This document shows, piece by piece, positions 27,605 through 64,000 of a stretch of 64,000 bases of DNA. Position 1 is the stretch's first letter. The number at the start of each line of letters is the position of its first letter. This DNA is from Bactericera cockerelli (taxonomy: Eukaryota > Arthropoda > Insecta > Hemiptera > Triozidae), in the NCBI GenBank assembly GCA_024516035.1, contig CM044959.1, positions 9,801,665-9,865,664 of the forward strand, given 5' to 3'. Under the pieces are notes generated by a model that saw only the letters and a list, made by a program, of their open reading frames with translations, was not told the origin of the DNA and did no database searches. The translations under genes were made by a program, and so were the position numbers.

Positions 27605-28937
27605 GCGCGCTCCTTCACGAATGAGTCACTCACTCAATCACTACCAAGAATCGGCTCTGTCACCATCCGAATGAGTCACTCAATCACTACCAAGAATCGG
27701 CTCAGTCACCATCCGAATGAGTCACTCACTCAATCACTACCAAGAATCGGCTCAGTCACCATCTTGTCTCGCGTGGCTAGGTACTCCTGTCTCTCTCTCT
27801 CTCGTTCGCGAGCTGCTTCACGAATGAGTCACTCACTCAATCACTACCAAGAATCGGCTCGGTCACCATCTTGTCTCCTGTGGCTAGATACGCCTGTCTC
27901 TCTCTATCCTTCACGAATGAGTCACTCACTCAATCACAACCAAGAATCGGCTCAGTCACCATCTTGTCTCGCGTGGCCAGATACTCCTGTCTCTCTCTCT
28001 CTCGTTCGCGAGCTGCTTCACGAATGAGTCACTCACTCAATCACTACCAAGAATCGGCTCGGTCACCATCTTGTCTCCTGTGGCTAGATACGCCTGTCTC
28101 TCTCTATCCTTCACGAATGAGTCACTCACTCAATCACAACCAAGAATCGGCTCAGTCACCATCTTGTCTCGCGTGGCCAGATACGCCTGTCTCTCTCTCT
28201 CTCGTTCGCTAGCTGCTTCAAGAATGAGTCACTCACTCAATCACTACCAAGAATCGGCTCAGTCACCATCTTGTCTCGCGTGGGTAGATACGCCTGTCTC
28301 TCTCTCTCTCTCGTTCGCGAGCTGCTTCAAGAATGAGTCACTCACTCAATCACTACCAAGAATCGGCTCAGTCACCATCTTGTCTCGCGTGGGTAGATAC
28401 TCCTGTCTCTCTCTCTCGTTCGCGAGCTGCTTCACGAATGAGTCACTCACTCAATCACTACCAAGAATCGGCTCAGTCACCATCTTGTCTCGCGTGGCCA
28501 GATACGCCTGTCTCTCTCTCTCTCGTTCGCGAGCTGCTTCACGAATGAGTCACTCACTCAATCACTACCAAGAATCAGCTCAGTCACCATCTTGTCTCGC
28601 GTGGCTAGGTACACCTGTCTCTCTCTATCCTTCACGAATGAGTCACTCACTCAATCACTACCAAGAATCGGCTCCGTCACCATTTTGTCTCGCGTGGCCA
28701 GGTACGCCTGTCTCTCTCTATCCTTCACGAGCTGCTTCAAGAATGAGTCACTCACTCAATCACTACCAAGAATCGGCTCAGTCACCATCTTGTCTCGCGT
28801 GGCTAGATACGCCTGTCTCTCTCTCTCTCGTTCTCGAGCTGCTTCAAGAATGAGTCACTCACTCAATCACTACCAAGAATCGGCTCAGTCACCATCTTGT
28901 CTCGCGTGGCTAGGTACGCCTGTCTCTCTCTATCCGG
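27605..28937. repeat. minisatellite of about 100-base units overlapping the PDPR stop codon
   Basis: Units read GAATGAGTCACTCACTCAAT, CACTACCAAGAATCGGCTCA, GTCACCATCTTGTCTCGCGT, GGCTAGATACGCCTGTCTCT plus (CT)n and CGTTCGCGAGCTGCTTCA. About 14 copies, some lacking the last module. The right edge lies inside the last PDPR exon, whose stop codon is in the first unit. Long + strand frames here come from the period. Confidence 0.95.
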
Positions 28938-29078
28938 ATACTTGGTGGGCAGGATGGGCGAGTGAAGATTCACCTTGGCCGGGTATCGAATCCCCGCTAT
29001 GTCCACCTCGTAGTCGCCTGAGAGAATGTAGTCGTTCGTGACCACCTGGCCTTTGTTCTGGACGAACCCTAGACACAC
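28863..29078 (-). CDS. PDPR: PDPR terminal exon (end of GCV_T C-terminal domain)
   Basis: The acceptor is TTGATTTCAG. The exon reads VCLGFVQNKGQVVTNDYILS, GDYEVDIAGIRYPAKVNLHS, PILPTKYPD, then RERQAYLATRDKMVTEPILG and SD before TGA. The part up to ILPTK is the normal end of the barrel-like C-terminal domain. The last 20 or so residues are encoded by the minisatellite, so the natural C-terminus has been replaced by repeat-encoded sequence. Confidence 0.88.
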   Translation of the reverse strand: MCLGFVQNKGQVVTNDYILSGDYEVDIAGIRYPAKVNLHSPILPTKYPDRERQAYLATRDKMVTEPILGSD

Positions 29079-30800
29079 CTGAAATCAATCATTTTTTTGT
29101 GAACTATTTTTATGAAGGATATACATTTGTTCTGGACAAACCCTAGATACACCTGAAATCAATAATTTTTTTGTGAACTATTTTTATGAAGGATATACAT
29201 TTGTTCTGGACAAACCCTAGACACACCTGAAATCAATCATTTTTTTGTGAACTATTTTTATGAAGGATATACATTTGTTCTGGACAAACCCTAGATACAC
29301 CTGAAATCAATAATTTTTTTGTGAACTATTTTTATGAAGGATATACATTTGTTCTGGACAAACCCTAGACACACCTGAAATCAATCATTTTTTTGTGAAC
29401 TATTTTTATGAAGGATATACATTTGTTCTGGACAAACCCTAGATACACCTGAAATCAATAATTTTTTTGTGAACTATTTTTATGAAGGATATACATTTGT
29501 TCTGGACAAACCCTAGACACACCTGAAATCAATCATTTTTTTGTGAACTATTTTTATGAAGGATATACATTTGTTCTGGACAAACCCTAGATACACCTGA
29601 AATCAATAATTTTTTTGTGAACTATTTTTATGAAGGATATACATTTGTTCTGGACAAACCCTAGACACACCTGAAATCAATCATTTTTTTGTGAACTATT
29701 TTTATGAAGGATATACATTTGTTCTGGACAAACCCTAGATACACCTGAAATCAATAATTTTTTTGTGAACTATTTTTATGAAGGATATACATTTGTTCTG
29801 GACGAAAACTAGACACACCTGAAATCAATAATTTTTTTGTGACCTATTTTTCTGAAGATTATATCGTCGGCTGGAAGGTAAAACTGACCATCTGCATTTG
29901 GACCATCGCCATTTGGTCATTGAAATCTCCACCAGTCTTTCAGGTAAAAATTGTTTTTTTCGTTTTTTTCCGCGCATATGTTTAAATACTACCGAACTTT
30001 TGATTTTTAGCCAATAGTTAGGTTAATATCCGACCAGAATAACGAAAAATCGAGAAATGACCAACTGTCACTTGGTCAGTTTTACTTTCTAGCCGACGAT
30101 ATATTATGTACATTTTTTCTGGACGAATCCTAGACACACCAAAAATCAATTTTTTTTGTAAACTATTTTACCAGACACAATGCCAACACTTTCTCCTCAA
30201 TAGTTCACATCATACTTGCACAATGTTCTCCTTATTTTTTCAGAATGTCTGATTTTCTTCCGTTTTTATTTCTTAATGTAATCAGAAGTGAACAACCAAA
30301 AATGGACGCATCTGATTTATCAAGGTTGTGGATTCTTGGGCTTTTCAAAGTGGACCGATTGAACGTCACATCTTACGGGAATTTTGAATGTTGAGGAAAA
30401 TTTGGAAAAAATAAAATAAAAAATAATAATAATAATATCGTATAATAATAATATTGCCTTACTTTTACGCCCACAACTTACCTGTTTCTTGAACGTGAAC
30501 CCTTACCATATATCTCCGTTCCTGTAGATGGGCTCGCCCCCCCCCCCCCCCCACGTAGCTTGCCCATAGGATAGTAAACAAGCGCCCACAACTTTTTCTT
30601 CTGTTGAATACCATTTTATACACATCAATTTTTTCTATTGTGAATGAAATTGAAAAAAAAAAAAAAAAAAAAAAATATTATTATACATACTATTATTTTG
30701 AACTCCCCACCTTCAGCACAAGATTTTTATCTTTTGAAGGTGGGTATACCTTCATAGTTTGTTGAAGATGATAATGTAAAAAATAAATAAATGGAAACTT

Positions 30801-30842
<42 letters not shown>

Positions 30843-31512
30843 TACCTGTTTCTTGAACGTGAACCCATACCCCGCCGTGGTGGCGGTGCCCACATACTCT
30901 CCGTTCCTGTAGATGGGCTCGCCCCCCCCCCCCCCCACGTAGCTTGCCCATAGGATAGTAAACAAGCGCCCACATCTTACCTGTTTCTTGAACGTGAACC
31001 CATACCCCGCCGTGGTGGCGGTGCCCACATACTCGCCGTTCCTGTAGATGGGCTCGCCCCCCCCCCACGTATCTTGCCCATAGGATAGTAAACAAGCGCC
31101 CACATCTTACCTGTTTCTTGAACGTGAACCCATACCCCGCCGTGGTGGCGGTGCCCACATACTCGCCGTTCCTATAGATGGGCTCGCCCCCCCCCCGCGC
31201 CCACAACTTACCTGTTTCTTGAACGTGAACCCATATCCCGCCGTGGTGGCGGTGCCCACATACTCTCCGTTCCTGTAGATGGGCTCACCCCCCCCCCCCC
31301 CCCCCCCCCCAGTAGCTTGCCCATAGGATAGTAAACAAGCGCCCACAACTTAGGGTTGGGTGGAAGAGATTGCCACAGGCAATAACCCCGCCCTTTAGGT
31401 AGGACATTATTGTTGTATTCTTTTTTTTTACTTATTTATTTTGTCATTTGTTTGTTTTTCTTTTTCTTTTCTTAATTTTATACTGTTACTTGTACTTTGT
31501 CCTCCTAATAAA

Positions 31513-31546: not shown

Positions 31547-32492
31547 TTACCTGTTTCTTGAACGTGAACCCATATCCCGCCGTGGTGGCGGTGCCCACAT
31601 ACTCGCCGTTCCTGTAGATGGGCTCGCCGCCCCACGCCCACAGCTCCGTGTCCGTGTCATGCTCGCCCACCAGCAGCTGGATGTACATTCGCTTCACCCC
31701 CTCCTCCCGCTGGCGGAGCAGGGCGTCCTTGCCGATGAAGTTGATGCCTTTCTGTAATACAATACAGTACCATACAATACAATTCACAATATCATACAAT
31801 ACAATAAAATTCTCAGGTAGAATTATCTTAGGGGAGGTGTTACATCGTGTACCAATTGTACCATACTAATGTTAAATTTTTTTTTTATCATATTTGTGTT
31901 CATCACTTTTGTGATATTACAACTACTCAAACTTGCTTTACTAAATCTACGCTGAAACCGGGACTTGAACCACCGACCTCCAGGTTACTTGTCTCCTACC
32001 TTATCGATCAAGCTAATGAGGTCGGTGTTATACAATACAATACAATACTCTGTTTATCATGCGAGAATGAGACCAAGGTCTGACTTTTAAAACAGGCTTA
32101 AAATCACAGAGGCGATAAAAATAGTTGTATTAAAAATTGGTTTGGTCAATTTGTTTCTTAAGTAAATTTTCATTAATTTGTTGTTGAGGCTTTTCTCACT
32201 GTACAGATTCAGCAGATAAGCTGAATTGGAAACTATGTATTGGTATTGGTATAAGTAGGGCTGTCGGCTACGAAAGCTCTTTGTCACTGCGACCTTAAAT
32301 AGATCTTTTGTGACATGCCCCTGTAACTCTAAAAGAGATCAAAGCTATTAATGTAGCTTAAGATTTTTTTAGGACTGATTTCGGTGACTTCCTTAAGTGT
32401 TAAGATAAGCCTTGAGAAGTGTTTCAGTCGAGCGTGTGAGGCTGCTCCACATTCACAGAGAATGTGTTTTGCTGTCTTTATGGCCTTTTTAC

Positions 32493-32523: not shown

Positions 32524-35500
32524 GGCAAACACAGATTACTTACATCGCCACAACTCCTCGGCCAAAATAGTCCATCAATTCATTGCCCTCAATTATAATC
32601 TGATTAAATATAAAACAGAATATTTCAAGTACCACCCTGAACCTATTTTGGAAAATACAATAGCAAAATTATACTGGGACACAACAATTATAACCGACCG
32701 AAGAATCGAAGCAAACCGGCCAGACATTGTTTTCCTTGACAAAATAAACAAGAAAGTCAAGTTGATCGACATCGCTCATCCCGCGGATCACAACATCACC
32801 ACGACCACCGCTGTCAAGATCCACAAGTATCAAGATCTGGCCATAGAGATATCCAACATGTGGAATGTGGAATCTGTCGAAAAAGATCCCAGTCGTCATG
32901 TCTACCAATGGTCTGATTCACCCAAGCTTCTACATCCACTCGAAGAAAATTGCACTACCACCTTCCCTTGTCCACCAGATCCAGAAATCAATTCTTCTTG
33001 AAAACTGCCGTCTTGTTCGCAAATTTCTATCACATTCTCCTGACTCCTGACTCAAATCAATAATTTAATCTATGTTTGCTATGAAAATAGCCCATAGATT
33101 CAAAATGTAACATACCATTGTAATATGAGAAATAAAATGAAATAGTAATAATAATAGAAAATCATATAAGGGCAAAGTTTTATAAGTAAAGCTATTAAGC
33201 CCAGAACTGCATTTTACAGGGACTGCATTTTAGGTCTTGAGCAATGCCCATTTGTTTAGACGGTAGTTAACTTATCCATTTCAGGGTTTGTTTCGTTCTC
33301 AATATACGCAATGCTCCTCAGTCTCACTCTTTTTATTATTATTTTTAAAGGTAAATGTGCCCCGGAACCGCTTTCGCATTACTTCAGGTAATGACTCAAT
33401 GGGTTCTAAAAAAGGCTGTGAACACTCATTTATTTTTACTGTAGGTATTTTAACTTATCCATCTCAGGGTTTGTTTCGTCCGCAATTCACGACTCCTCAG
33501 TCCCACTCACATCGAACTTGACCCGCCAGGACCGCCCACACTCGAGCGGCGTCGTGGCGGTGTCCAGATCCTGGCCCCAGAAGGCGTACAGCTTCTCCAC
33601 TCGGAGTGCCCGCATGGCGTAGTAGCCGCTGTGGCGGATGGCGTACTGGCGGCCGGCGCTCATCAGACTCGTGTACACGTGCAGGGCGAACTGGAACCAA
33701 GGAAATGATAATAATATTTGAGGGGGTTAGGCGCCAAGTGACATAAAGTTAAATTTGAGTATTTCGAGGCCAAAGTTTTTTTATTACAGTAATTGAGTCA
33801 TTTCAAGGATAGGGTTTTACTTATTACAGTCTCATCAGTTAGATAAAATTCTATTTCCTCTTGCTACATAATAAAATTCAGTCTCATCTTTCCAGTGGTA
33901 TACAGTGGAAGAGAATGCCGTTGGCATTAGCACCGCCCTTGATCAAGTTTTGTTTTGTTAATTTTAATTTCTATGTATGTATATATTCTATGTTATTTGT
34001 AAATAAAACTTGATCAAATATGTTTAATAATAATAATAATACATAACTCAGTTTCTCAAAAAATGTCACTTGTACCCCTTGGCGCCTAAACCTCTCATTT
34101 AGTAAAGTAATAATGGAATAGATTGGTGTCGGCATTAGCACCGCCCTTGATCAAGTTTTGTTCTATTAATTTCATTATCTATGTATTGTATATATTCTAT
34201 GTAAATAAAACTTGATCCAAAATGTTTAATAATACCTATGGATTGGGTTGGATGGTAGAGATTGCCTTAGGCAATAATCCCGCCCTTTGTGATTTATGTA
34301 AATAAATTTCAATAAAGAGTTTACTACTACCTATATCACCTAATTTGTACTGCCTGACCAGGACTATTAAAGTCCCATAATTCCAACAGTAAGCCCAAGA
34401 CATATTATTATGTGGTAAAAATCCCAAATGGGAGGATAACTTGTCATGTCCCGGCTGAGTTTCGAACTCGCAATCTCTGAATTACCAGACCGACGCCTTG
34501 ACCAATGAGTAACCGCTAATTTTTTTTTTAAATTGATCTGTTTTCACCGGGAAATTAACTTCTTTTTTTCACCTTAGATGGGGGTTGTAACATATAAAAT
34601 CCAATAATTTTGAGGTGCTGATTACGAATTTGACATTGGTTTTTAGCTAACTATTACCTTTGAGTCATTAGTGTCTGAATTTGACTTATTTTTGAGTGAT
34701 AAGGATAGTCGTGTGGTGTCACACCAGATTATTTAAATCCATTTTAAGAACTAGATCATTTCGAGATCATTTTAGTCACCGTGGCCGGGTAGCCAACTAG
34801 CTTCACACGCAGGTTCGATCCCTAAAAGGATACATTTTTTTTGCTGTGAACTCAAAAGTTACCGAGTCCACCCATACATAATATACAGGAAGTATAAAAC
34901 TCACCTCGTTAGGAATATACAGAACGTATCCCAGTTCTCCTGTATGAGTGAGGTTCATGGCTCGAATACCATTGGCTAACCCAACGTCCAATTCCTGGAA
35001 AAAAAGCATGCCAGGTTAAAAGAAAAGTTATCATATTTGTGTTAGTCACTTTCGTGATGTCACAACTACTCAAACTCGCTTTACTAAATCTACGCTGAAA
35101 CCGGGACTTGAACCACAGACCTTCGGGTTACAAGTCCGCGTTATTAATGATCAAGCTACTGAGGTCGGTAGGTTAAAAGAAACGGATGGCAGAATAGCCC
35201 TCTGATTGCAAAGAGCCAGCATTCATGACCCAGAAGAAACGTTTGTCTGGCTGTGGGACGTTAGGAAGACCAGTGGCTTTTTAACGTCCCCTCCCTAAAG
35301 GGCGGGGTTATTGCCTCTGGCAATCTCTTTATTATAATTATGCATCAGTTGATTATAATTATTTTATTTTTTTATTATAATTATGCATCAAAATCCTAGA
35401 AGTTTCTTAGGATTTTGTTGTGCGGTTTCATAAGTTTTTTTTGTCATTTTTATTTTAAAATTAGTTGTGCCCCGGAACCGCTTTCGCATTACTTCAGGGC

Positions 35501-38500
35501 ACTACCTTGTATTCATGGATTTTGTAATTTATTTGCTGTCAGTATTTGTTTGTATTTGTCCTTCGAATAAAGAATTCAATAATAAAAATACAGTATAATG
35601 TATTATCATCATCACAGGGTGGCGTCATCGTGAACGATGGTAGCCAGACAGTGGAGGAATGACTCAACACTTCTAGCACTGCTTTACAAAGAGGCTAATA
35701 ATTGACAAGGGTCCCCAGAACCAAGCCAATGCTGGTCTACTCGCTGTTTATAATCGCCCAGCCAGACTGCTGGTCTGCTCCCTGTCTATAGTTCTCCAGC
35801 TAGACTGCTTGTCTACCCCCTGTTTATATTCCCCCAGCCAGACATTTGTCGTGTCCCGGTTGGTTTTTGAACCCGCGATCTCTGGATTACCAGACATACA
35901 TATTTATTTTCAAATACCTTTTCATATAAGTAATAATGTCGTGTAATGCAAAAGTTCGCTGAGTTTTTAGATACCTAACAAATTTTAAGAAATATTTTTC
36001 AAGTCTTCAGTTTTAAGTCTTTTCAACACACTACACACTATAGTCACTACACACTACACATTCATGTACACCATACACTACACACTGGACATGGAAGGAG
36101 CCCAGAACAATGGTTCTGGGCGTCCAAAGGGTTCACTCATATCAATCCTTCCACCACCATGACATAACACATGGACACGGAAAAAAAAAAAATATAAGTA
36201 ACATACCTTGTAGGTGAAGAACGGGAAGTTCTCCGGACTGAGGTCCACCTCCGTGAGCTGGGAGAGGAGGGCGCGGGTGAAGGGGCCCATGATGCAGATG
36301 GCGGTGTAGGAGGAGGTGACGTCATTCACCGTGACGGAGCCATCCGCCGGCAGGTGGCGCTCGATCCACACGCGACAGCGCGTCTGCTGGATGGTGGGCG
36401 CGATCATCATGTAACTGACAGAATAAATAAATAATTGAATGTTCCGATCATCATGTAACTGACATGATAAATAAATAATAAATGTTAAGATCCACACCCG
36501 ACAGCGCGTCTGCTGTATGGTGGGCGCGATCATCATGTAACTGACAGAATAAATAAATAATAAAGCGATCATCATGTAACTGACGTAATAAATAAATAAT
36601 GAATGTTAAGATCCACACGCGACAGCGCGTCTGCTGTATGGTAGGCGCGATCATCATGTAACTGACATAAAAAATAAATAAAGAATGTTAAGATCCACAC
36701 TCGACAGCGATCATCATGTAGCTGACATAATAAATAAATAATGAATGTTAAGATCCACACGCGACAGCGCGTCTGCTGTATGGTGGGGGCGATCATCATG
36801 TAACTGACATAATAAATAAATAAAGAATGTTAAGATCCACACGCGACTGCGCGTCTGCTGTATGGTGGGAGCGATCATCATGTAACTGACATAATAAATA
36901 AATAATAAATGTTAAGATCCACACTCGACAGCGCGTCTGCTGTATGGTGGGCGCGATCATCATGTAGCTGACAGAATAAATAAATAATTAATGTTAAGAT
37001 CCACACTCGACAGCGCGTCTGCTGTATGGTGGGCGCGATCATCATGTAACTGACATAATAAATAAATAATAAATGTTAAGATCCACACTCGACAGCGCGT
37101 CTGCTGTATGGTGGGCGCGATCATCATGTAACTGACATAATAATTAAATAATAAATGTTCCAACCTCAGTAGGAAGGTAATCGCGTCTGCTGTATGGTGG
37201 GAGCGATCATCATGTAACTGATGTAATAAATAAATAATAAAGCGATCATCATGTAACTGACATAATAAATAAATAATAAAGCGATCATCATGTAACTGAC
37301 ATAATAAATAAATAATAAAGCGATCATCATGTAACTGACATAATAAATAAATAATAAAGCGATCATCATGTAACTGACATAATAAATAAATAATAAAGCG
37401 ATCATCATGTAACTGACGTAATAAATAAATAATAAAGCGATCATCATGTAACTGACATAATAAATAAATAATAAAGCGATCATCATGTAACTGTAATAAT
37501 AAATGTTCCGAGAACAATAATAATTGAATGGGTGAGTAGAAGAACCAGGAATGTCAAAAATCAATTTTTTTTTCTTTGTAGAATAAGAATGAATGTACTC
37601 TTTTCTATCATCTTTGTGAATATGAAGGAGAAATACCCCTTAAAAGTATAATTTTTTTCGATTTTAAAGTGGGGGAAGCGGAAAAAAATGTGATGTAAAA
37701 TAAGGAATGTAACAAAATCACTGACCATTTTTGCTAGCGGTATTAGTACCTAGTTGTGAGAATCTTGTCGAATAACAAGGAATGTAAAATTTAATTTTAT
37801 TATACTCATTAGCATCAGGAAAGCAAAAATAAGACAAATCTTATTTTTGCTTTCCTGAAAAGTCGATTTTTGACATTCCTGGTTCTTCTACTCACCCATT
37901 CAATTATCGATCATTCGGGCTGTCCCTCTGCTCGCAGCCGTATTTATGAACAGAAAACGCCGTTTGAGCATGGTCTGAAGCATGATTTCCTTTAATATTA
38001 TTGGCCAATTCCTTGCTTGAGACATTGCTCAGACAAAATTCGCTGTTCATAAATACGGTGTTAGACTCAGAGGTACTAGAAAAACTGTAAGGAGTCTACC
38101 TTATGAAGATGGAGCTGGATTACCAGTGATCTACTGTTAACTTGTATACCATTATTTCTTCTTTAAAGCGAAAAAAAATAATTATGGAACATAAATTTTC
38201 CTTTAACTGCGAAGTATTTTTTCGAATAAAGTTACAAATTTCTTCTGCATTTTTCTTTATAAAAATAAATGTGTCCGACCTCAGTAGGAAGAGAATGCCG
38301 TTGGCATTAGCACCGCCCTTGATCAAGTTTTGTTTTATTAATTTCAATTTCTATGTATGTATAAGTATATTATTATATTCTATGTCAATTGTAAATAAAA
38401 CTGGATCGAATAATAGCTTGATCGATAAGGCTGCAGACTTGTAACCTGGAGGTCGGTGGTTGAAGTCCCGTTTTCAGCGTAGATGTAGTAAAGAGAGTTT

Positions 38501-54242: not shown

Positions 54243-54243
54243 A

Positions 54244-54290
<47 letters not shown>

Positions 54291-54414
54291 AACACACACA
54301 CACCAACCACCACACACACACACACCACACACACACCACCAAAACACACCACACACACCACACACACACACAACACCACACCACACACACCCCCACCACA
54401 AACACACACCACAC

Positions 54415-54445
<31 letters not shown>

Positions 54446-57400
54446 TCATTTAGGTTTGAAAAAAAACCTGAATATTTTTTGTAGCCCATCTATTTTCTGG
54501 TCTTCCCCGGCGTAGCTCAAGAATGGCTCATCAGAATTTCGCGATCAATATGTCAAATGAAAGCCTAAACCCTTACCTAAAACTTTCTCGCTCTGAGTTG
54601 ATAGGTCGTCACTTCAAATTTCGAGAAAAAATGTCATTTAGGTCAAAAAACGTGAATATTTTACATGTTACCCATCCATTTTTTTACCTTACCCGGCGTA
54701 GCTCAAGAACGGCTCATCAGAAATTCGCGATCGATATGTCAATTGAAAGCTCGAACCCTTGCCTAAAACTTTCTCGCTTTGAGTTGATAGGTCGTCGCGA
54801 CAAATTTCGAGAAAAAATGTCATTTATGTCAAAAAACGTGAATTTTTTTTGCGTCACCCATCCATTTTTATCCTTACTCATTGTAGCTTAACCTCAGGGA
54901 GATATAATCTAGCCTAGAAGAATTTCCTGATCCAAAGGGACCTATGTGCAAAATTTCAGGTTTCTCGGTCAAACGGTGTGGATTTGTATAAAGAACATAC
55001 ATACATACATACACACATACACACATACACACATACACACATACAGACAGCTTTCTTTTATAGATATAGATTGTTTTCAGCTGTACACCCTCTATAGCGG
55101 CACAGTCTACGGTCTCCTAGTGGTCTTCTTCGTCCTCTCTCTGTTCCACACCATCCAGTCCTTCTCCCACTTCGAGCTCTTCACCCAGCTCATGGTGGAG
55201 ACGATCTTTGTGAGCACCTGCTTCGTCAACATCTCCACCTTCTTCCTTCTCTCCAGAAGGATCAAGTCTCTGCTGCACATCATGAAGAATGATTTCCTCT
55301 CCGTGCAGGTACGTTAACAGAACTTCGGTTTGGTTGGTAGAAAGGAATGCCAATATTAATAATAGTAATATCGCCTTATTATACTGCCCGAGTATTGAGT
55401 CCCATTATTCCAGCAGTAAGTCCAAGACTTATTATTATGTGGTAAAAATCCCACATGGGAGGATAACTTGTCTTGTTCCGGCTGGGTTTCGAACCAGTGA
55501 CCTCTGGAATCTCTGGATTCACACAGTGCCGCCTTTACCACTGAGCTACCGGGACAGAATATTAAGTTGAAGGTGTTATCTACAACTGTACGGGAATGAA
55601 CGTCACTGTTGCATAAATTGTAATGTAGAGGGTCTATTGTTGACCAACTACTAATTGACATCGATACAACAGATTAGGGAACATCAAAACAACTGAGAGT
55701 CAAGTGGTTAAGGCACTTGTCTGGTAATCCAGCGTAGGGATCCGTTGGTTCGAATCTCACCCAGTGCATGAATTTTTCCTCATTAATTCGAGTTTGTCAC
55801 CTTACAATAATGAGACTCTGAGGGTTAGGTGGTAGAAAGTGCTTAGATTATTAACCTCACCAGTTGGTTACCTTCCACTAAAGAGTGTTATTACTATAAT
55901 AAATAAATGTGTTACTTTGTGTTTTTAAATCACAATTTTTGTGGGTAGCGCAGAATTATAGGACTTTTCCATATTTTTAATATCCCAATATCTTATTTTT
56001 GCTTATAATTCCGCCACTGGTCGCTGCTAACAATAAAGCAGCTACTCATTTTTCCTCACGAGGTATGTGTGGACCCCGAACACACAAGTTCAGAGCAGAA
56101 AAAAAAATTGTTCAAGATTCGTAGAACCGACCATAAATTAAACTTGAAAAAATGAATAGATTAAATACCACTCGTTTCGATTTTGCAGAGTGAAATTACA
56201 AGGAATTGCATTCGGCTGGAGAAGTTCATCTGTATTGTGTCTTGTATTTTGGCTGTCACCACTTACTATGCGTTGGTTCGAGAGAAAATATTTGGTACTC
56301 CCACCATCAGGGAAGTTAATATATTGAAGAAGGTCAGTTATAATATATTTTAATTATGACACACACAACTTTGTTTTACAAAGTTGAAATTAAGACAAAA
56401 TTGGATTTACAATTTTGAGTCACTTAATTTTTTTTCCATTAACCCTTTTGAAGCAGCTGATTTTTGAATATTATTTTCTGATGTAGAATGATGAGTTAAA
56501 CTCAAATCTGTTTTTTTTTTAAATCTAAACTGAACACCTGGGGAATTATACCTAGGCCTCTAAAGTTCATGTAAACAGGAGTTCACTTTTGTGACGTATA
56601 TTGATAATATTGATACCAAGTTCCCACCAGATCTACAATCATTTGTCGATCCAACGGGGAAATTCAAACGCTGTGCTGAATACCATGCCCCAGAGTAAAA
56701 GTATGCAAAGCGAGATTGATTAGTATTTTATTTTTTAAACATTTCATCTGTACAATTTAAATAAAACATGATTAACATTATATATGTTCCACAAAAAGTA
56801 AAATAAAATAGGGTTGGGTGGAAGAGATTGCCAAAGGCAAGAACTCCGCCCTTTAGTTAGGACATATCTCGTATTATGTACAGGGTGCGGCGCGGTTATG
56901 TCCCATTTTGAGTCGCCCAGTGTGAAGCCGCACTTCTAATTAGACAAATTCGAACAAAGTTAGAAGATGCACAAACTACTAATTTTTTCGATTCAATTCA
57001 GCTCAGTTGTCAAAATGATTTTATCAAAGCAACAGAAAGCTTATTGCGTGGAGAGTTATTTTTCGAAAAATAAGTGTATCGTAGCAGTGCAGCGAAAGTT
57101 TGACATTGCACACCAAACTGTAACTCGATCTGCATGGAGGGAGTTTTCATGAAGTTCCCTAGGGTTGTTGTCACTCCAATAACGCATATTTTGTTTATTA
57201 ACACAGCCTGTGTCAACCCCCAAAACGTTGAACGAGTACGTGAGGCGATATTGCGGTCACCTAGGCGCTCAGCTCGCAAGCATGCTGCTGCTCTTGGCAT
57301 ATCAGACCGTTCATTGCGGAGGATACTTCATAAAGAACTGCATTTTCATCCCTACAAAATGGTAGTGGTGGAGGAATTGTTCGAGCGAGACTTTATTCAA

Positions 57401-60400
57401 CGACAAAATGCATGTGAAATCCTGATTGACTCCCTACTTCCAGATGCGATAGTTTTCTTCAGTGATGAAGTCCATTTTCACATTTCAGGCTGTGTTAATA
57501 AACAAAATATGCGTTATTGGAGTGACAACAACCCTAGGGAACTTCATGAAAACCCCCTCCATGCAGATCAAGTTACAGTTTGGTGTGCAATGTCAAACTC
57601 CCGCTGCGATGCTACGATACACTTATTTTTCGAAAAATAACTCTCCACGCAATAAGCTTTCTGTTGCTTTGATAAAATCATTTTGACAATAGAGCTAAAT
57701 AGAATCGAAAAAATTAGTAGTTTGTGCATCTTCTAACTTTGCTTGAACTTGTCTAATTAAAGGTGCGGCTTCACACTAAGCGATTCAAAATGGGACATAA
57801 CCGCGCCGCACCCTGTATATATATATATTTTTTTTCTTCTATTATATTGTACTTTAAATTGTAATTATTTGTGTTGTATGTAATATGTCCTATTAATAAA
57901 GTGTAAATAAATAAAATGAACTATTTCAAGAAGAAGGGGGCATTTGAAAATGTTCATAAACTCACAAGCGAGAGTATATTTATTGAGAAAAAAAAAAAAA
58001 AAAATATCCATAGTAGTTTCTGAATTTCCCGCCAGATCTACAACCGCACACACCCAGAGCGTCGACTGCCCGTGCGTCTCTACAGCGGCCCACTGGACTA
58101 CACCCTCTCCCCTACTACGAGGGCGTGGCTCTCTACGACGTCATTCTCCTGGGCGTCTGCTTCTACATTCACTACATGGCCATCTCCACTTTATTTATTG
58201 TTTATTTATTGAGAAAAAAAAAAAATATATATATATATACCTATATACAGGGTATTAATCCCAAATAAAAAATTAAAAAAACTCGGTTTTAAAAAAAAAT
58301 CAAGTCATTATTTCACTTGTGAACCACACTGTATAAAATTTTTTGGCATCAAAAAATTATATTCATTTTTTTTTTTTTTTTTGATACAAAAAAAAAATTG
58401 TATTAAAAAAAAACAGTGCATGTATTCATTACACAAACACTTTCTATTCTTGTTATCGAAAAAATTAAACGAACTTGAGCTATTCGAGATTTAGAAAAAA
58501 ATTGGTCGAAAAAAAACCATCCTGCTGTATGTAAATTTTTTGTTTAAAAAAGTACTCAGGAACCATTTAGAAGTAAAATTATCAAATAAAATTCAGGTCG
58601 ATCCATTTAGAAATCGAAAGTTGACACCTCAATTTCTGACTTTTGAACCACCCTGTATATAAAAAAAATTCATGGCTGAAACCGCATAATTAGGACATGT
58701 ACCCTAGGATTTTTTATTTTTAAAAAATCTTTCAGGGGCCGAGTAATTCGAGGTGTCCAACTTTGGTGGGACACCCTGTATATATATTTATCCATATTCA
58801 CTGTATCACTGTATGGATCTGTAATATCAACACTAGAGTTTGTCTCTCCAGTGTTGCAGATCGCATGACCGCCATCCTTCTCTGTCTTGGGCTTTCCTCA
58901 TCCATGTATTACTCGCTATTTTTCTTATTGCGTCGTTCCATCTCGTTGGTGGATGTCCTCTTCCTCTGTTTCCTTCTCTCGGGTACCACTCTGTCACTCG
59001 TTTTGTCCATCTATTGTCTTTTGTTCTTTTCCATATTACATTTTGAATATATATTTATCCATATTTCCCGCCAGATCTACAACCGCACACACCAGAGCGT
59101 CGACTGCCCGTGCGTCTCTACAGCGGCCCACTGGACTACACCCTCTCCCCCTACTACGAGGGCGTGGCTCTCTACGACGTCATTCTCCTGGGCGTCTGCT
59201 TCTACATTCACTACATGGCCATCTCCACCGTGCCGATCTTCTGCGTCCACATCGCGGGCCAACTGAGGACCCTGTCCAAGCTGGCCGAGTCCAGCCGCCC
59301 GACGGACTCCGAGTCGAGAAACTTGGCCCTGATCAAGCACCACATTGGCATTATCAAGTAGGACCAAGCATTATTATTATTATTATTATACAACGCTTTA
59401 TTAGGTATAAATGGACATTATGTACATACAAATAATTAATTTAACAATGAAAAAAATGGAAACAATATATACAATGAAAATGAAAAAGAATAGAAAATAT
59501 ATAAAAACACAAGTCCTAACTAAAGGGCGGGGTTATTGCCTATGGCAATCTCTTCCACCCAAGCATTAAGTGGCAGAGAATGCCTAAGGCATTAACTTCG
59601 CCCCGGATTACAAGTAGATTTGAATTTAAATATTTTTTTTTCTTCTATATTTTATTTTGTAAATATTGTTAATTTTTTTATCTCTGTTAATAATTTATGG
59701 TTGATTGTTTTGTATAAAAAAATAAAGTGTAAATAAATTGAGCGCACGAATAGCTCAGTGGTTAGGCACTCGCTTGCCATGCGGAAGGTCCCGGGTTCGA
59801 ACCCCCGCGCCGACAAAAAATTGTATTCAAAATTTGGTTACAGTTGTTTGTAAGGGATACCTTCCGGTGCCCTCGTCTTGACCCAGCACCTAAATGGGAA
59901 GTATTGTGTCACTTCTCGCCCATCAGAGGGGAGGCATACTACGGGATGGGCAGGCTACAACACAGACCACAAGCGTCTACAGTAGCTCCTGTTTCATGGC
60001 TAGGAAACAAAAAAGGCTGTGAAACACTCATCAAACAAAAAAAAAACACAAAAAAAAAAAAAAAAAAAATAGCCCCCTACTACGAGGGCGTGGCTCTCTA
60101 CGACGTCATTCTCCTGGGCGTCTGCTTCTACATTCACTACATGGCCATCTCCACCGTGCCGATCTTCTGCGTCCACATCGCGGGCCAACTGAGGACCCTG
60201 TCCAAACTGGCCGAGTCTAGCCGCCCGACGGACTCCGAATCGAGAAACTTGGCCCTGATCAAGCACCACATTGGCATTATCAAGTAGGTCCAAGCATTAA
60301 GTGGCAGAGAATGCCTAAGGCATTAACTTCGCCCGGATTACAAGACAATTGTAAATTTGAATTTGAATATTTTTTTTCTTCTATATTTTATTTTGTAAAT

Positions 60401-63215
60401 ATTGTTAATTTTTTTATCCCTGTTAATAATTTATGGTTGATTGTTTTGTATAAAAAAATAAAGTGTAAATAAATAAATAGGTCCTTGATAATGCCGTTGT
60501 GAAGAGACTGCCGTTGGCATTAGCACCGCCCTTGATCAAGTTTTTTTTTTATTATTAATTTCAACTTCTATGTATGTAGTTATTTTATGTCATTTGTAAA
60601 TAAAACTTGATCGAACATGTTTAATTTTTAATAGCTCCGATAAGCCAGAGTCGACGGCACGTTGAATGCACCAGTTCTTGGTCTATCACTGAAGTTATAA
60701 TATTAAAAATAATACCAAACTTATCTATACTTATAAAAGAGAGTTTCACTCACTGACTGACTCACTGATTCATCACTGTTTCTCCGAACTGGTAAGTCCT
60801 AGGACGCTGAAATTTGGTAGGTAGCTTTGTCTTATAGTCTATATGTGCAATATGACGGGCTTTTTCGAAATTCCCACTACAACACCTGCCATTGGCGAAA
60901 AAGGATTTTTTGCTTTACGGCCATGCCTCGGACCGCAAAGCGGGCGACAGCCCGCTAGTTCCATATAAAGGTTTATTTATTGATTTCGCCCTTAATTTTT
61001 CCAGATATTTCAAGGAGTTCGAAACGATTTTCCGTCCAGTGTTCATGATCAAAGTGGTGCTCCGCCTCATCTTCATAACCCTGGAAATCGTGCAGCTTTC
61101 TCTCCTCAAGTCGATCACCGACCCCCGGTTCACAAGGACCATGATTCAGATGACCATCGGGTTCACGGACTTTCTGTTCTTCTGCGCAAGCTCCGAGGTG
61201 GTCAACAATGGAGAAGAAACTCTGTTCCGATCCATTTATAAGAGTCGATGGTAATTTTTTTATTTATTATTAATAATAGTAATAAGTTTTCTATTGACGT
61301 TAAGAGTCTATTTATAAGAGTCGATGCTATTTTTTTTTTATTATTATTAATAATAATAATAAGATTTCTATTGACGTTAAGAGTCTATTTATAAGAGTCG
61401 ATGGTATTTTTTTAATTATTATTATAAATAATAATAATAAGTTTTCTATTGACGTTAAGAGTCCATTTATAAGAGTCGATGGTAAGTTTTTTTATTAATA
61501 TTAATAATAATGCTTTATTTATACTGCCCCATAAGGACTATTAAGTCCCATTATTCCAGCAGTAAGCCCAAGACGTATTATTATGTGGTAAAAATCCCAA
61601 ATGGGAGGATAACTTTTCTTGTCCCGGCTGGGTTTCAAACCCGCGATCTCTGGATTCACACAGTGCCGCCTTTACCACTGAGCTACCGGGACAAAATAAG
61701 TTTTCTATTCTAATAATAATAAGTTTTCTATTGACGTTAAGAGTCTATTTATAAGAGTCGATCGTAAGTTTTTCTTATTAATAATAATAATAAAATATAT
61801 AAGTTCTCAGGAAAACTAATACATAAACACAACTCTTGGTAAAACAAATTAAAATCTTCAAATTATTTCGAATGATAATAAGTTTTTTATTGAAGTTAAG
61901 AATTGCCATGCAGCCGTAACAGCTATGTCCTATCAAGCCATTAAAACCTTGGTGAACTACAAGCTAGCCTGGCTTGTTAGGGTGAGCTAGTACGTTCTCT
62001 GTTTATAGTCCTCTAGCGAGGCACTGCTCTTCTTACTGTTTAACATCCCCAATACTCTTGAAAATAGTTTGGTGTTATAAGGCAAGGTTATCTTAATTTA
62101 AATATTAAATATAATTAAACTAAGAAATAATGTTAGATTACCTGGAAACCCTCCTGAAAAATGCCAGAATAAAGCGGAAAGCAGAAAAAAAAAAGATTAA
62201 ATACATTAATATTGACATACATAATTACACAGGCAGTACATTTTTTTTTTTTTTGCAATAACCTAGTTGTCGAAAAGGAACTCAATGAGATTTTTTTCTT
62301 TTCCTTTTTTCTCCTCCCGTCGTGATATCTATCATCATTTTTTAATTGAATATTGGGTTACTTTATTTTGTAAAAAATAATAATTACATAAATCAATAAT
62401 ATTAATGAAAATAACTATAGTTAATTAATGTAAAATTAATAAAAATAGGTAGGTAATATGAAACGGCAAAAAAAAAACAAAAAAATATTAATAGAATTGA
62501 ATTGAATATTTTTTAAGGTGCTTTCAAAAAACATTTTGAAACATTTTTTTTTTACGGTGCTTTCAAAAAACATTTTGAAAGCATAGTAAAAAAATAAGAT
62601 ATTTTTTGTCTTTTATTGAAACGCCTTTTTGTTGAACAACTGTTTTACACCAGAGGTCATTTCGAGAGGGGTTGAAACCTCATCGATTTTTTTTTTTTTC
62701 AATGACATTTTTCTATAAACAGTCTGGTTGGGGGATCATAAACAGGGAGGAGACCAGCATTGGCTTGGTTCTGGGGGACCTTGTCAATTATTAGCCTCCT
62801 TGTAACGACAGAAGTAGAAGTGCTGAGTCATCCCTCCACTGTCTTTTTTTTTTTTTTTTTTTTTTAAGATCCCTCCATCCACCCCTGTTAGGCGATTGAA
62901 AGGGGGCACCTGCTGGCAATAGCCTCAATCCCCCGTTCAAACCTCCATACAGTCATCTTACTTTTTTTTCTCTCTCTCCACTGTCTGGCTACCATCGTTT
63001 ACGATGACGCCACCCTATGATGATGATTTTTCTATTCCAGGTACGAGACCAGTCCTCACAAACGACAGCGGACCAGCATGATGCTCGAATATCTGAAGCG
63101 CCCTCTCAAGTATTCGTTCTACAGCACTTTCCTCATCATAGACATGAGCACCTTCATAGGGGGCATGCGTCTCGCCTACTCCGTGTTCACGCTCCTGCGG
63201 TCTTTCATAGAATAG
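51349..63215 (+). CDS. insect odorant receptor (7tm_6), seven exons
   Basis: Gene-level entry. Exons 51349-51558, 52923-53102, 55081-55308, 56189-56332, 59075-59357, 61005-61250, 63041-63215. All splice phases agree and the coding length is 489 codons if one base is restored in exon 5. The protein is a multi-pass membrane receptor with inverted topology that would form a ligand-gated channel with Orco in sensory neurons. The end, GFTDFLFFCASSEVVNNGEE, SRWYETSPHKRQRTSMMLEY and TFIGGMRLAYSVFTLLRSFI, has the E/Y-W-Y and TFxxxxRxxYSxFTLLR pattern of the odorant-receptor C-terminus. The gustatory TYhhhhhQF motif is absent. Ligand unknown. Confidence 0.82.
51559..52122. other. receptor intron 1, nothing recognised
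   Basis: No repeat family assigned before the exon-edge array; 52040-52120 is TATTCTATTCC-type sequence continuous with the array units. Confidence 0.4.
52040..52922. repeat. acceptor-side array of receptor exon 2
   Basis: Four extra exon starts at 52124, 52327, 52530 and 52733, exactly 203 bases apart, then the true exon at 52923 (190 later). Each has TATTCCACAG, CCACTCAAGTTACCTCCATA, GTAAACTTAGGTTCCCGTGA, TCAGAAAGATGATCTGGA. The copies diverge from the true exon immediately after CTGGA. Confidence 0.95.
52923..53102 (+). CDS. odorant receptor exon 2
   Basis: A 60-codon phase 0 exon between TATTCCACAG and GTTAGATT. It reads VTQVTSIVNLGSRDQKDDLE, QMFAHSEFKALSSSCKYECF and LINFKLFHYIGLWREDDGSQ. 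F..NFKLFHYIGLWRxDDG is the usual start of the receptor core just before transmembrane helix 1 (ILNxxxLxxxGLWP in many receptors). Confidence 0.82.
53103..53429. other. receptor intron 2, nothing recognised
   Basis: TCTTTTATTTGGTATTTTCG, CCACAAA/CCACGAAGG occurs twice at 53255-53340, a possible old repeat. Confidence 0.4.
53430..53977. repeat. acceptor-side array of receptor exon 3
   Basis: Seven units of 76-80 bases: TTGTTTATATTGTTTTCAG, then CTGTACACCCTCTACAGCGG, CACAGTCTACGGTCTCCTAG, TGGTCTTCTTCATTTGTTTT. Each has the 3' splice site and about 58 coding bases. Confidence 0.95.
53978..55070 (-). mobile_element. retroelement-like insertion in the last array unit, with expanded (CA)n
   Basis: It starts ATACTAGCGGGTTACACCCG, CCGCTTCGCC and ends TTTCTTTTATAGATATA. 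The body contains two copies of GGCGTAGCTCAAGAA...GTCATTTA (54508-54660 and 54690-54840), AAATTTCAGGTTTCTCGGTC and (CATA)n. The + strand copy at 60730-60958 ends with the complement (GCGACAGCCCGCTAG). Such GCGGG...TATAGAT elements are short non-autonomous retroelements; the class is not certain. Confidence 0.6.
54022..54441. repeat. (CA)n / (CACAC)n microsatellite
   Basis: About 420 bases of CA with CC and AA interruptions; it creates three overlapping spurious C/V-rich frames on the minus strand. Confidence 0.98.
55081..55308 (+). CDS. odorant receptor exon 3 (transmembrane helices 1-2)
   Basis: A 76-codon phase 0 exon between TTGTTTTCAG and GTACGTTA. It reads LYTLYSGTVYGLLVVFFVLS, LFHTIQSFSHFELFTQLMVE, TIFVSTCFVNISTFFLLSRR, IKSLLHIMKNDFLSVQ. 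Two hydrophobic segments are separated by a short loop. The first 58 bases are the unit of the array at 53430. Confidence 0.85.
55365..55560 (-). repeat. SINE family A, full length
   Basis: Minus strand: TGTCCCGGTAGCTCAGTGGT, AAAGGCGGCACTGTGTGAAT, GGTCACTGGTTCGAAACCCA, then body and tail AATATTATTATT-type. Confidence 0.88.
55695..55900 (+). repeat. SINE family C, full length
   Basis: GTCAAGTGGTTAAGGCACTT, GTCTGGTAATCCAGCGTAGG, GATCCGTTGGTTCGAATCTC, GTGCATGAATTTTTCCTCAT and TTGGTTACCTTCCACTAAAG, tail TTATTACTATAAT. Confidence 0.9.
56189..56332 (+). CDS. odorant receptor exon 4
   Basis: A 48-codon phase 0 exon between CGATTTTGCAG and GTCAGTTA. It reads SEITRNCIRLEKFICIVSCI, LAVTTYYALVREKIFGTPTI, REVNILKK, with one hydrophobic segment (FICIVSCILAVTTYYAL). 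No edge array here. Confidence 0.82.
56333..56805. other. receptor intron 4, first part
   Basis: AT-rich, no repeat family recognised. Confidence 0.4.
56881..57815 (+). mobile_element. Tc1/mariner-type element with 330-base inverted arms
   Basis: TA at 56879-56880 and 57816-57817 flank the element. The termini are CAGGGTGCGGCGCGGTTATG and its complement. The inverted repeat continues for 330 bases on each side (56881-57210 and 57486-57815) with few mismatches. The 275-base loop holds the middle of a transposase frame. Because the arms include coding sequence in both orientations, the transposase is scrambled and the copy cannot be autonomous. Confidence 0.9.
57009..57640 (+). pseudogene. broken mariner-type transposase
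   Basis: The start region reads SKQQKAYCVESYFSKNKCIV, AVQRKF as in mariner N-termini, then runs into inverted sequence. From about 57205 the frame reads NVERVREAILRSPRRSARKH, AAALGISDRSLRRILHKELH, then IVFFSDEVHFHISGCVNKQN, RYWSDNN and VTVWCAMS. The SDEVHFHISGxVNKQNxRYW block includes the second catalytic acidic residue. The DNA-binding domain is not continuous with it. Confidence 0.8.
57916..58035. other. receptor intron, A-rich spacer
   Basis: No feature beyond an A run at 57989-58003. Confidence 0.4.
58036..58187 (+). pseudogene. partial upstream copy of receptor exon 5
   Basis: It repeats 59075-59228 with the acceptor TTTCCCGCCAG. It keeps the C missing from the downstream exon (CACACCCAGAGCG) but lacks one C later (CTCTCCCCTACTAC). 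It stops abruptly after ATGGCCATCTCCACT. Confidence 0.85.
58248..58778. mobile_element. MITE-like element with CAGGGT ends
   Basis: TA-flanked CAGGGTATTAATCCCAAAT at the left and GGTGGGACACCCTG at the right; only about six terminal bases pair. The interior AAATTCAGGTCGATCCATTT, GAAAGTTGACA is shared with the palindromic MITE at 26629, supporting a common family. Confidence 0.45.
59075..59357 (+). CDS. odorant receptor exon 5 (helices 4-5), one base short
   Basis: The acceptor is TTTCCCGCCAG and the donor GTAGGACC. The frame that continues to the donor reads LYSGPLDYTLSPYYEGVALY, DVILLGVCFYIHYMAISTVP, IFCVHIAGQLRTLSKLAESS, RPTDSESRNLALIKHHIGII. The first codons, IYNRTH, are in another frame; one C missing from CACCAGAG at 59091-59096 (present in the copy at 58036) accounts for it. 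Length is 283, needing 284 to keep phase with both neighbours. Confidence 0.85.
59388..59562 (-). repeat. SINE family D copy
   Basis: Minus strand: TTGGGTGGAAGAGATTGCCA, TAGGCAATAACCCCGCCCTT, TAGTTAGGACTTGTG, ending TACCTAATAAAGCGTTGT and an (AAT)n tail. Confidence 0.88.
59572..59738 (+). repeat. SINE family D copy (variant head)
   Basis: TAAGTGGCAGAGAATGCCTA, AGGCATTAACTTCGCCCCGG and AATAAAGTGTAAATAAATTG. A second copy at 60297-60480 came with the exon duplication. Confidence 0.75.
59740..60040 (+). repeat. SINE family H, full length
   Basis: GCGCACGAATAGCTCAGTGG, TTAGGCACTCGCTTGCCATG, CGGAAGGTCCCGGGTTCGAA, CCCCCGCGCCGACAAAAAAT, then CCTTCCGGTGCCCTCGTCTT, CATCAGAGGGGAGGCATACT, CTCCTGTTTCATGGCTAGGA and GGCTGTGAAACACTCATCAA. 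A/B boxes are intact but the tRNA acceptor stem does not close. Confidence 0.85.
60074..60480 (+). pseudogene. partial downstream copy of receptor exon 5 with its intron
   Basis: 60074-60286 repeats 59149-59357 (CCCCTACTACGAGGGCGTGG to ATTATCAA) with two or three substitutions and its own GTAGGT donor. The following intron, including the variant family D SINE, is duplicated too. It lacks the exon start and acceptor. Confidence 0.9.
60492..60635 (+). repeat. SINE family D (TTGATCAAG subtype)
   Basis: TGAAGAGACTGCCGTTGGCA, TTAGCACCGCCCTTGATCAA and AATAAAACTTGATCGAACAT. Confidence 0.8.
60640..60705 (+). repeat. 5S-derived SINE head fragment
   Basis: GCCAGAGTCGACGGCACGTT, GAATGCACCAGTTCTTGGTC and TATCACTGAAGTTA match the 5S head of family E, then end. 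Confidence 0.6.
60730..60958 (+). mobile_element. short retroelement related to 53978-55070
   Basis: CTATACTTATAAAAGAGAGT, TTCACTCACTGACTGACTCA, TAGGACGCTGAAATTTGGTA and GCGGGCGACAGCCCGCTAGT. The last part is the complement of the start of the element at 53978. Confidence 0.6.
61005..61250 (+). CDS. odorant receptor exon 6 (helix 6 region)
   Basis: The acceptor is TTTTTCCAG and the donor GTAATTTT. It reads KYFKEFETIFRPVFMIKVVL, RLIFITLEIVQLSLLKSITD, PRFTRTMIQMTIGFTDFLFF, CASSEVVNNGEETLFRSIYK, SR plus two bases. The hydrophobic FTDFLFFCASSEVV stretch followed by E.L...IY.S.W is the conserved odorant-receptor segment around helix 6. It ends two bases into the tryptophan codon completed by exon 7. 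Confidence 0.9.
61251..61790. repeat. donor-side array of receptor exon 6, with a nested SINE
   Basis: Units of about 75-80 bases: TTTCTATTGACGTTAAGAGT, C(C/T)ATTTATAAGAGTCGATG, GTAA(G)TTTTTTTATTATTATT. The exon end with donor occurs at 61302-61332, 61380-61406, 61458-61486 and 61736-61770. A family A SINE (61500-61695) splits one unit. Confidence 0.9.
61500..61695 (-). repeat. SINE family A, full length
   Basis: Minus strand: TGTCCCGGTAGCTCAGTGGT, AAAGGCGGCACTGTGTGAAT, GCGGGTTTGAAACCCAGCCG, body GGGCTTACTGCTGGAATAAT, tail ATTATTAATA. Confidence 0.9.
61791..62710. other. receptor intron 6
   Basis: 61930-62052 repeats 51163-51290 (AAGCCATTAAAACCTTGGTG, CTCTGTTTATAGTCCTCTAG). 62515-62585 has GGTGCTTTCAAAAAACATTT twice, 49 bases apart. 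The rest is AT-rich with nothing recognised. Confidence 0.5.
62715..63030 (-). repeat. repeat family G split by a retroposon
   Basis: Outer parts match family G in reverse: TCTGGTTGGGGGATCATAAA, TTGGCTTGGTTCTGGGGGAC and CCATCGTTTACGATGACGCC. The insert is at 62845-62975. Confidence 0.85.
62845..62975 (-). mobile_element. short retroposon with poly-A and 11-base target duplication
   Basis: CTCCACTGTCT at 62834-62844 recurs at 62976-62986. The insert starts with a T run (poly-A on the minus strand) and holds AAGATCCCTCCATCCACCCC, GGCGATTGAAAGGGGGCACC, GCTGGCAATAGCCTCAATCC. Confidence 0.8.
63041..63215 (+). CDS. odorant receptor exon 7, C-terminus (helix 7)
   Basis: The acceptor is TCTATTCCAG. 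It completes the tryptophan codon and reads WYETSPHKRQRTSMMLEYLK, RPLKYSFYSTFLIIDMSTFI, GGMRLAYSVFTLLRSFIE before TAG at 63213. L..L.RPL......F..ID..TF.......YS.FTLLR is the signature of the last helix of insect odorant receptors. Confidence 0.92.
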
Positions 63216-64000
63216 AAAGCGCTTAGAATTACAGTAGAATCCCGCTAGCTCGAAATTCAAGGGACTCGTACCTTATTTCGAGTTATTGAGAGTTTCGAGA
63301 AACCGGGATTTCGACTTATAGGGAGAGCATAAATGAGAATTCGAGATATCGGGAGTGAAAAATACATAATGTACATACATTTGTTCATGTATTTTTACAA
63401 AGAAAGTAGGTAGACACACATACAAATCAGGTGCTACTTAAGTCACTGTATTTTAAAAGCTTAGGGAACTAGGTACCTACCTACCTAGGTACTTTTAAAG
63501 TAGTCTGTAATTTTCTTTAGAACGAATGACTGTCCTTGAAGCTTTTTTTGAGCTAGGGAAAGGGTTTTGAGTACCCTACGTTTACTGATTTTCGAACTCA
63601 TTCTCACACTTTACTCACAAAACTAAGAAAGTAAGAAACGTCTACCTCTACGTACCGGACAAACTGAAATCTAAATGCAAAAGTGATAGATTTTACTATT
63701 GTTTCTGATTCCCTGCATAAACTTTTCTGAACTTGTCCGGATCCTCTGTCCAGCAATTTCATGAGAAGAAAATTTCGAGGTATATGACGTCACGGTATTG
63801 AATTTCGAGTTATAGGGAGTATAGTTGAAAAAATATTTCGGCTTATCGAGAGGACTTTTTTACATGCATTTCTTTCAATTTTTTTCGACTTATCCAACGG
63901 CCGAAGGATTCTTTCGACTTATCGGGATTTTCGACTTACCGGGATTTCGAGTTTAGCGGGATTCTACTGTATATTCATAGAATAGACAGCGCTTAGAAAT
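63216..64000. other. 3' flank of the receptor with duplicated end
   Basis: TTTCATAGAATAGAAAGCGC, TTAGAATT at 63204-63230 recurs as TTCATAGAATAGACAGCGCT, TAGAAAT at 63974-64000, on the other side of the MITE. The window ends there, so the repeat count is unknown. Confidence 0.7.
63232..63969. mobile_element. pogo/Tc1-type MITE with CAGTAGAATCCCGCTA ends
   Basis: TA flanks both ends. The left CAGTAGAATCCCGCTAGCTC, GAAAT faces the right TCGAGTTTAGCGGGATTCTA, CTG. Subterminal TTTCGA(G/C)TTAT words recur many times in both orientations. No transposase frame; 738 bases. Confidence 0.85.

Follow-up and report, generated by a model that had tools for sequence, protein, structure and literature searches.

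Mirage minisatellites at coding ends in many genes of a psyllid

Mirage minisatellites are known from amphioxus, where tandem arrays consist of copies of intron–exon boundaries taken from the 5' and 3' edges of exons. The accessible parts of the papers describing them report such arrays in Adh3, the globin genes BflGb6 and BflGb9, troponin C and PGBD5, with units of 10–160 bp and with the exon itself intact (PMC3087553, PMC3902484). In the same parts of these papers, many copies keep the AG or GT of the splice site, copy number at BflGb6 varies between haplotypes, splicing of the globin genes was checked by RT-PCR, and somatic instability is reported for Adh3 (PMC3087553, PMC3902484).

Two further systems are close. 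The 31-bp VNTR of human CBS, c.1444_1467+7(16_21), comprises by its name 24 exonic and 7 intronic bases including the donor site, with alleles 16–21 in the portion of the source consulted (PMC2630376). The AGGT model, as set out in the available portions of its sources, has introns gained by tandem duplication of coding DNA that carries splice signals and is tolerated through splicing (PMC2891723, PMC3443670). Our search of the open-access literature, a scope beyond which most subscription papers lie, found no report of mirages in an insect and no genome-wide test.

The arrays of the psyllid Bactericera cockerelli are an insect instance of mirage minisatellites, and one that extends over many genes. 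Our starting point was a window of 64,000 nucleotides, the whole stretch of DNA analysed, to which all plain coordinates refer. The repeat units in it span exon–intron boundaries, copies occur at both exon edges (seven acceptor, five donor), all 64 copies counted lie on the outer side of the whole exon, and 82 of 86 ungapped copies keep the splice signal.

The PDPR and odorant receptor genes and their repeated edges

The genome assembly comprises 565 Mb in 1,032 contigs. Two genes in the window carry the arrays. PDPR is identified by protein matches (among them one from Diaphorina citri, with 91% identity to the translated gene) and by the Pfam domains GCV_T and GCV_T_C, both above cut-offs. 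Ten of its exons lie within the window on the minus strand, and a TGA stop codon closes the last at 28863. Its N-terminal exons lie at 65.9–71.5 kb (numbering continued past the window), to the right of a seven-exon odorant receptor gene on the plus strand (Pfam 7tm_6), so that a PDPR intron holds the receptor gene in opposite orientation. The reading frames of both genes are open in the window, except in PDPR exon b. The exons were placed by exon mapping (PDPR) and self-BLAST (receptor):

46906–47075, minus strand: PDPR exon a
45803–45994, minus strand: PDPR exon b, with a 1-bp frame break that is missing from the other copy of the locus and is probably a consensus error
44117–44275, minus strand: PDPR exon c
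43332–43486, minus strand: PDPR exon d
41015–41163, minus strand: PDPR exon e
36207–36414, minus strand: PDPR exon f
34905–34994, minus strand: PDPR exon g, un-duplicated here, with a 34-bp donor array in the other copy only (also self-BLAST)
33511–33690, minus strand: PDPR exon h, with a donor array in the other copy only, 100-bp unit (also self-BLAST)
31551–31751, minus strand: PDPR exon i
28863–29078, minus strand: PDPR exon j, the last coding exon
51351–51559, plus strand: receptor exon 1, without copies
52923–53102, plus strand: receptor exon 2, refined by a 1-base check of the AG
55081–55309, plus strand: receptor exon 3
56189–56332, plus strand: receptor exon 4, without copies
59075–59357, plus strand: receptor exon 5
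61005–61250, plus strand: receptor exon 6
63040–63217, plus strand: receptor exon 7, including the stop codon

An initial annotation of this DNA had named about a dozen splice junctions in these two genes as tandem arrays. All twelve have local copies by TRF, self-BLAST and anchors: seven acceptor edges (29078, 36414, 44275, 47075, 52923, 55081 and 59075) and five donor edges (31551, 41015, 43332, 59357 and 61250). Nine are indeed arrays; those at 47075, 59075 and 59357 proved by self-BLAST to be single duplications. A thirteenth edge is no splice site at all, its array (27587–28936) lying across the PDPR stop codon. PDPR and the receptor thus have 13 coding edges with local copies, ten as arrays and three as single duplications. 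That two genes bear arrays was also correct, with the amendments that they are nested and that one array more lies at a stop codon. The copies and arrays are:

27587–28936, minus strand: stop-spanning array with units of ~107 bp (also ~50 bp) made of ~70 bp from the end of the PDPR coding sequence, the stop codon and 3' sequence; the same array is in the other copy (TRF)
29052–29857, minus strand: exon j acceptor-edge array, 74-bp unit × 10.9, 27 exon and 47 intron bases (TRF, anchors)
30482–31300, minus strand: exon i donor-edge copies, TRF units of 130 and 101 bp, ~80–95 exon bases (TRF, self-BLAST)
36363–37504, minus strand: exon f acceptor-edge array, 82-bp and nested 39-bp units (TRF, self-BLAST)
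38761–41088, minus strand: exon e donor-edge array, 73–83-bp units, 29 BLAST copies besides the exon; missing from the other copy (TRF, self-BLAST)
42443–43195, minus strand: exon d donor-edge array, 68-bp unit × 11.1 (TRF, self-BLAST)
44206–45266, minus strand: exon c acceptor-edge array, 178/183-bp units with nested ~23-bp repeats, three exon-edge copies (TRF, self-BLAST)
47080–47284, minus strand: exon a, single acceptor-edge copy and (GAATA)n at the junction (TRF, self-BLAST)
52096–52981, plus strand: receptor exon 2 acceptor-edge array, 203-bp unit × 4.4 (TRF, self-BLAST)
53419–53975, plus strand: receptor exon 3 acceptor-edge array, 80-bp unit × 7, ~1.1 kb off the exon (TRF, self-BLAST)
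58037–58189, plus strand: receptor exon 5, single acceptor-side copy (self-BLAST)
60073–60285, plus strand: receptor exon 5, single donor-side copy (self-BLAST)
61234–61511, plus strand: receptor exon 6 donor-edge array, 77-bp unit × 3.6 (TRF)
63974–64000, plus strand: start of the receptor exon 7 stop-spanning array, 30-bp unit, running on past the window end

The receptor stop codon is separated from its array by an insert of ~750 bp (63225–63973) with terminal inverted repeats ACAGTAGAATCCCGCTA.

Copies of acceptor edges lie upstream and copies of donor edges downstream of the intact exon, as the initial annotation had it. Counted with 30-base anchors within 1,500 bases, 64 copies in the window lie outward of the exon and none inward; the corresponding counts are 56 and 0 in the other copy of the locus, 56 and 0 in myosin genes, and 4 and 0 in CCT genes. 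This order needs no particular process: when a segment reaching from an exon into an intron is tandemly duplicated, one whole exon is left with its site and the added copies fall on the intron side. Candidate decoy splice sites are the rule: GT or AG is kept in 82 of the 86 ungapped copies in the window, so that the claim of a usable site in every unit is nearly right as far as the dinucleotides go, and an AG precedes receptor exon 2 and each of its four copies.

Laminin and TPX2-like junctions in the window had been singled out as lacking copies. They do lack them—none of 12 edges, with exon boundaries placed by eye, has a copy by 30-base anchors—but about one would be expected at the rate of 11/119 found elsewhere, so the absence carries little weight.

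Other repeats lie in the window. A long non-LTR retrotransposon-like stretch occupies 20200–24466 on the minus strand; we read in it an FYADD motif that we take to be that of a reverse transcriptase. The palindromic sequence at 57000–57790 is, by our reading, presumably a folded-back mariner-like element. A very noisy (AC)n tract (54018–54440) lies beside a 186-bp duplication, between receptor exon 3 and its copies. A 38-bp unit belonging to a dispersed element recurs at 15665–15739, 35730–35843 and 43659–43773 (2–3 copies each), and the homologous block described below holds ~21 of them (stretch L005, ~9704980–9705773).

A second copy of the locus and the turnover of arrays

A homologous PDPR–receptor block of like orientation is found ~135 kb to the left; its exons are 92–99.5% identical to those of the window. 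The homology begins no more than 5 bases from the end of an N gap (24467–24566) and extends past the window. The laminin exon likewise recurs, at 9977354 and in inverted orientation at 9918463, and several exons of CCT and kinesin genes occur twice on one contig. Unpurged haplotypes probably account for these duplicates, tandem paralogy being a possible alternative.

The two copies share ten edges with local copies: those of exons c, d, f and i, the acceptor and stop of exon j (the acceptor with a single remnant unit in the other copy), the acceptors of receptor exons 2, 3 and 5, and the receptor stop. Four edges are repeated in the window only (the exon a acceptor and the donors of exon e, receptor exon 5 and receptor exon 6) and two in the other copy only (the donors of exon g, with a 34-bp unit, and of exon h, with a 100-bp unit). 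Unit numbers differ between the copies as well. Edge arrays therefore turn over fast: edges gain and lose them between copies a few per cent apart. Near-identical myosin loci also differ in their arrays (L030 and L031; L035 and L037).

Exon g provides the one clean pre-duplication state. In the un-duplicated copy, CTGTATATT occurs at its donor both in the exon and in the intron, 34 bases apart, which is the unit length of the array in the other copy. This 9-base chance direct repeat is a possible seed. A 9-base homology is also the 95% point of random comparisons, so the evidence for a seed is weak.

Could the arrays have been made or inflated by errors of long-read assembly? The initial annotation had raised this explanation, and we consider it very improbable as the source of the pattern. 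It draws on real blemishes. Variation among the units of the exon e array consists of small deletions, with hardly any substitutions: each of the 22 pieces scored, of 26, has 0–2 substitutions and lacks up to 10 bases. Nine of these bases are perhaps a true variant, as their loss is common to many units. Frame breaks of one and two bases occur in PDPR exons (exon b in the window, exon a in the other copy), and the homology between copies starts beside the N gap. Against this, repeats were assembled at the ten shared edges in both copies of the locus, where their unit numbers differ; unrelated loci on other contigs bear arrays of this kind; and the type of error points to unpolished long reads that spanned the array. 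We infer that the exon e deletions and the PDPR frame breaks are marks of imperfectly polished long reads. Since arrays occur at many unrelated loci, such errors leave the unit numbers, which we give as assembled, uncertain, and not the arrays themselves.

Recurrence in other genes and the excess at coding edges

Exon-edge duplication is recurrent, as had been proposed: the same structure occurs in myosin and CCT genes and, by match tables, at two kinesin exons. The myosin set consists of the 30 best of 77 myosin-head matches with 1,500 bases on each side and is not a random sample; three stretches, L032, L033 and L044, which we take to be Mhc alternative exons, were set aside, and 27 were used. 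Self-BLAST found copies of one exon edge in eight stretches; in one of them, L021, the array does not overlap the exon and lies in the intron. Refined splice sites add edge-spanning arrays at L030, L040, L041 and the donor of L028; that at L025 is uncertain. The CCT set, likewise not random, consists of 33 of 68 matches, 31 of them in the array-seed tests after two were lost at a stretch end. Among five CCT stretches, L047 and L051 have donor arrays, L048 an acceptor duplication and L049 a donor duplication and, separately, a borderline edge overlap of 3 bases; self-BLAST of the stretch found no edge copies in L050. For kinesin, three matches on contig C11 (8013127, 8013443 and 8013734) and a further two (10314239 and 10314579) correspond to the same end of one model stretch (match table only). 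Roughly one in ten of the exon edges examined in this genome has copies, at uneven density (11 of 34 edges in the window versus 3 of 65 in CCT genes).

Is the edge favoured over the intron? Because the window was picked for being striking, we place the weight on the myosin and CCT sets. There, 12 of the 45 arrays called by TRF extend across a refined edge by at least 3 bases, where random placement of seeds would give 2.2, a 5.6-fold enrichment that none of 5,000 simulations reached. The figure is 11 of 38 against 2.0 when one of each near-identical pair is dropped, and 10 of 36 against 1.9 when L025 is removed as well. Most of the signal is in myosin (9 versus 1.05); CCT alone is not significant (3 versus 1.06, P 0.09).

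The raw share of duplicated anchors, the comparison that the initial annotation had named as its own test, gives no excess: edges (myosin 8/54, CCT 3/65, window 11/34, other copy 9/34) are no more often duplicated than non-exonic positions (0.182, 0.065, 0.333 and 0.233, respectively). This measure counts every array copy as an intronic anchor, and we therefore replaced it by one count per repeat family. Pooled, 11 of 119 edges then have copies against 0.037 (P 0.005), with 8/54 against 0.045 in myosin (P 0.003) and 3/65 against 0.022 in CCT (P 0.17); these counts, like the raw ones, include L021, and the P values ignore the linkage of edges within one gene. The PDPR–receptor part of the window gives 11/34 against 0.068, the other copy 9/34 against 0.114 (P 0.012), and the left part of the window 0/12 against 0.024. 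Local permutation by touch, leaving out arrays of the dispersed 38-bp unit, places 7 of 15 arrays at an edge in the PDPR–receptor part (1.5 expected, P 0.00035) and 6 of 19 in the other copy (1.1 expected, P 0.00025). The proposed enrichment over random intronic anchors thus appears with one count per family, at 2.1–2.6-fold, and not in the raw share.

It is possible, though we lean against it, that the apparent excess is mostly ascertainment, with constrained exons diverging more slowly from their intronic copies and transposons diluting the introns. The drop from 5.6-fold in the seed test to 2.5-fold in the anchor test fits such a bias, as do the raw anchors and the young copies (at most one mismatch in 30), which give 7/119 against 0.028, a 2.1-fold ratio with P 0.054. 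Yet the pooled ratio stays at 2.6 (P 0.004) when dispersed repeats are masked, and at least four edge arrays (those at 29052, 30841, 42443 and 52096) have units matching at 95–96%, too young for a large divergence effect. The three measures differ in magnitude; we read the edge excess as real and moderate, two- to sixfold, and as coming mainly from the myosin set.

The initial annotation had read the arrays as the product of a process anchored at splice junctions, in which splicing or transcription amplifies splice sites, for example by template switching at a nick or at the edge of an R-loop. The seed excess, which persists when near-identical pairs and L025 are removed, is what such a process would give, and so is the position of the innermost array ends in myosin: seven fall in the last 50 exon bases against ~0.8 per 50-base intronic bin (unrefined match ends, L021 included). 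Several observations argue the other way. Arrays also lie across stop codons, which involve no splicing: they do so in PDPR and the receptor (in both copies) and in the CCT gene of L049, three of the five genes whose stop codons were examined, the CCT gene of L051 having a stop codon without an array and that of L048 a likely one without. There is no clear bias between donors and acceptors, either in the two PDPR–receptor copies (seven distinct edges of each kind) or among the control arrays (eight donor, four acceptor). The CCT set has no in-exon peak of innermost ends, 33 of the 45 control arrays are wholly intronic, and the direct repeat at exon g is a possible ordinary seed. We regard a junction-anchored process as improbable.

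Ordinary duplication and comparison with known systems

The arrays at three of five stops, the lack of clear bias and the automatic orientation favour a simpler explanation, which we consider probable: these mirage-type minisatellites are ordinary tandem duplications, tolerated where they straddle a coding end. The boundary that matters seems to be that between the end of coding sequence and the noncoding sequence beside it. Replication slippage or short-homology joining would copy a segment of ~30–200 bp that starts in the exon and ends in adjacent noncoding DNA. One whole exon would keep its place along with its splice site or stop codon, so that the message could remain as it was. Such a duplication could drift as a near-neutral variant and then expand or shrink like any minisatellite, growth coming from slippage or unequal exchange. 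Duplications wholly within exons would be purged by selection, and those spanning a boundary would form the visible rim of exonic duplication. Wholly intronic duplications also survive, and the 33 such arrays in the control sets contradict the suggestion that selection leaves only duplications seeded at exon edges to be seen.

Uniform birth and purifying selection predict 2.2 edge-spanning arrays where 12 are seen, so some further factor must add to the number at edges. It may be that exon-derived copies remain recognisable for longer, that exonic DNA is more prone to duplication, or that a boundary-linked process is at work. A stronger version, in which tandem duplication has genuine hotspots at coding boundaries, be they splice sites or stops, with rates several-fold those of introns owing to some boundary-linked feature of chromatin or composition, and in which the whole genome provides a still segregating supply of duplicated splice sites, seems to us rather doubtful. 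If it were true, new introns and exon ends could arise from that supply. With roughly one in ten of the examined edges duplicated and homologous copies that differ, the psyllid would offer direct measurements of intron growth, tolerance of decoys and intron gain by tandem duplication. There is also a warning for annotators, since partial exon copies can inflate gene models.

How do these arrays relate to the systems described before? Introners, where one element family occurs in many genes, do not account for them: within the examined stretches, the exonic portion of every unit corresponds to the exon next to it. The AGGT model creates a new intron within a continuous exon, whereas existing introns grow in the psyllid. 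The human CBS repeat, polymorphic in length, is a single mammalian locus and is not known to belong to a genome-wide class. Amphioxus mirages are the nearest relatives, and the psyllid arrays resemble them in all testable features: units span the exon–intron boundary, both edges of exons are involved and the exon remains whole. The two homologous psyllid copies, be they alleles or tandem paralogues, differ strongly in their arrays. The psyllid differs in being an insect and in the involvement of stop codons; its arrays were compared with intron seeds, and their splicing is predicted from sequence, where that of the amphioxus globins was checked by RT-PCR. The mirages in the accessible parts of the amphioxus papers are in a few genes (PMC3087553, PMC3902484), whereas in the psyllid the pattern recurs across many unrelated genes.
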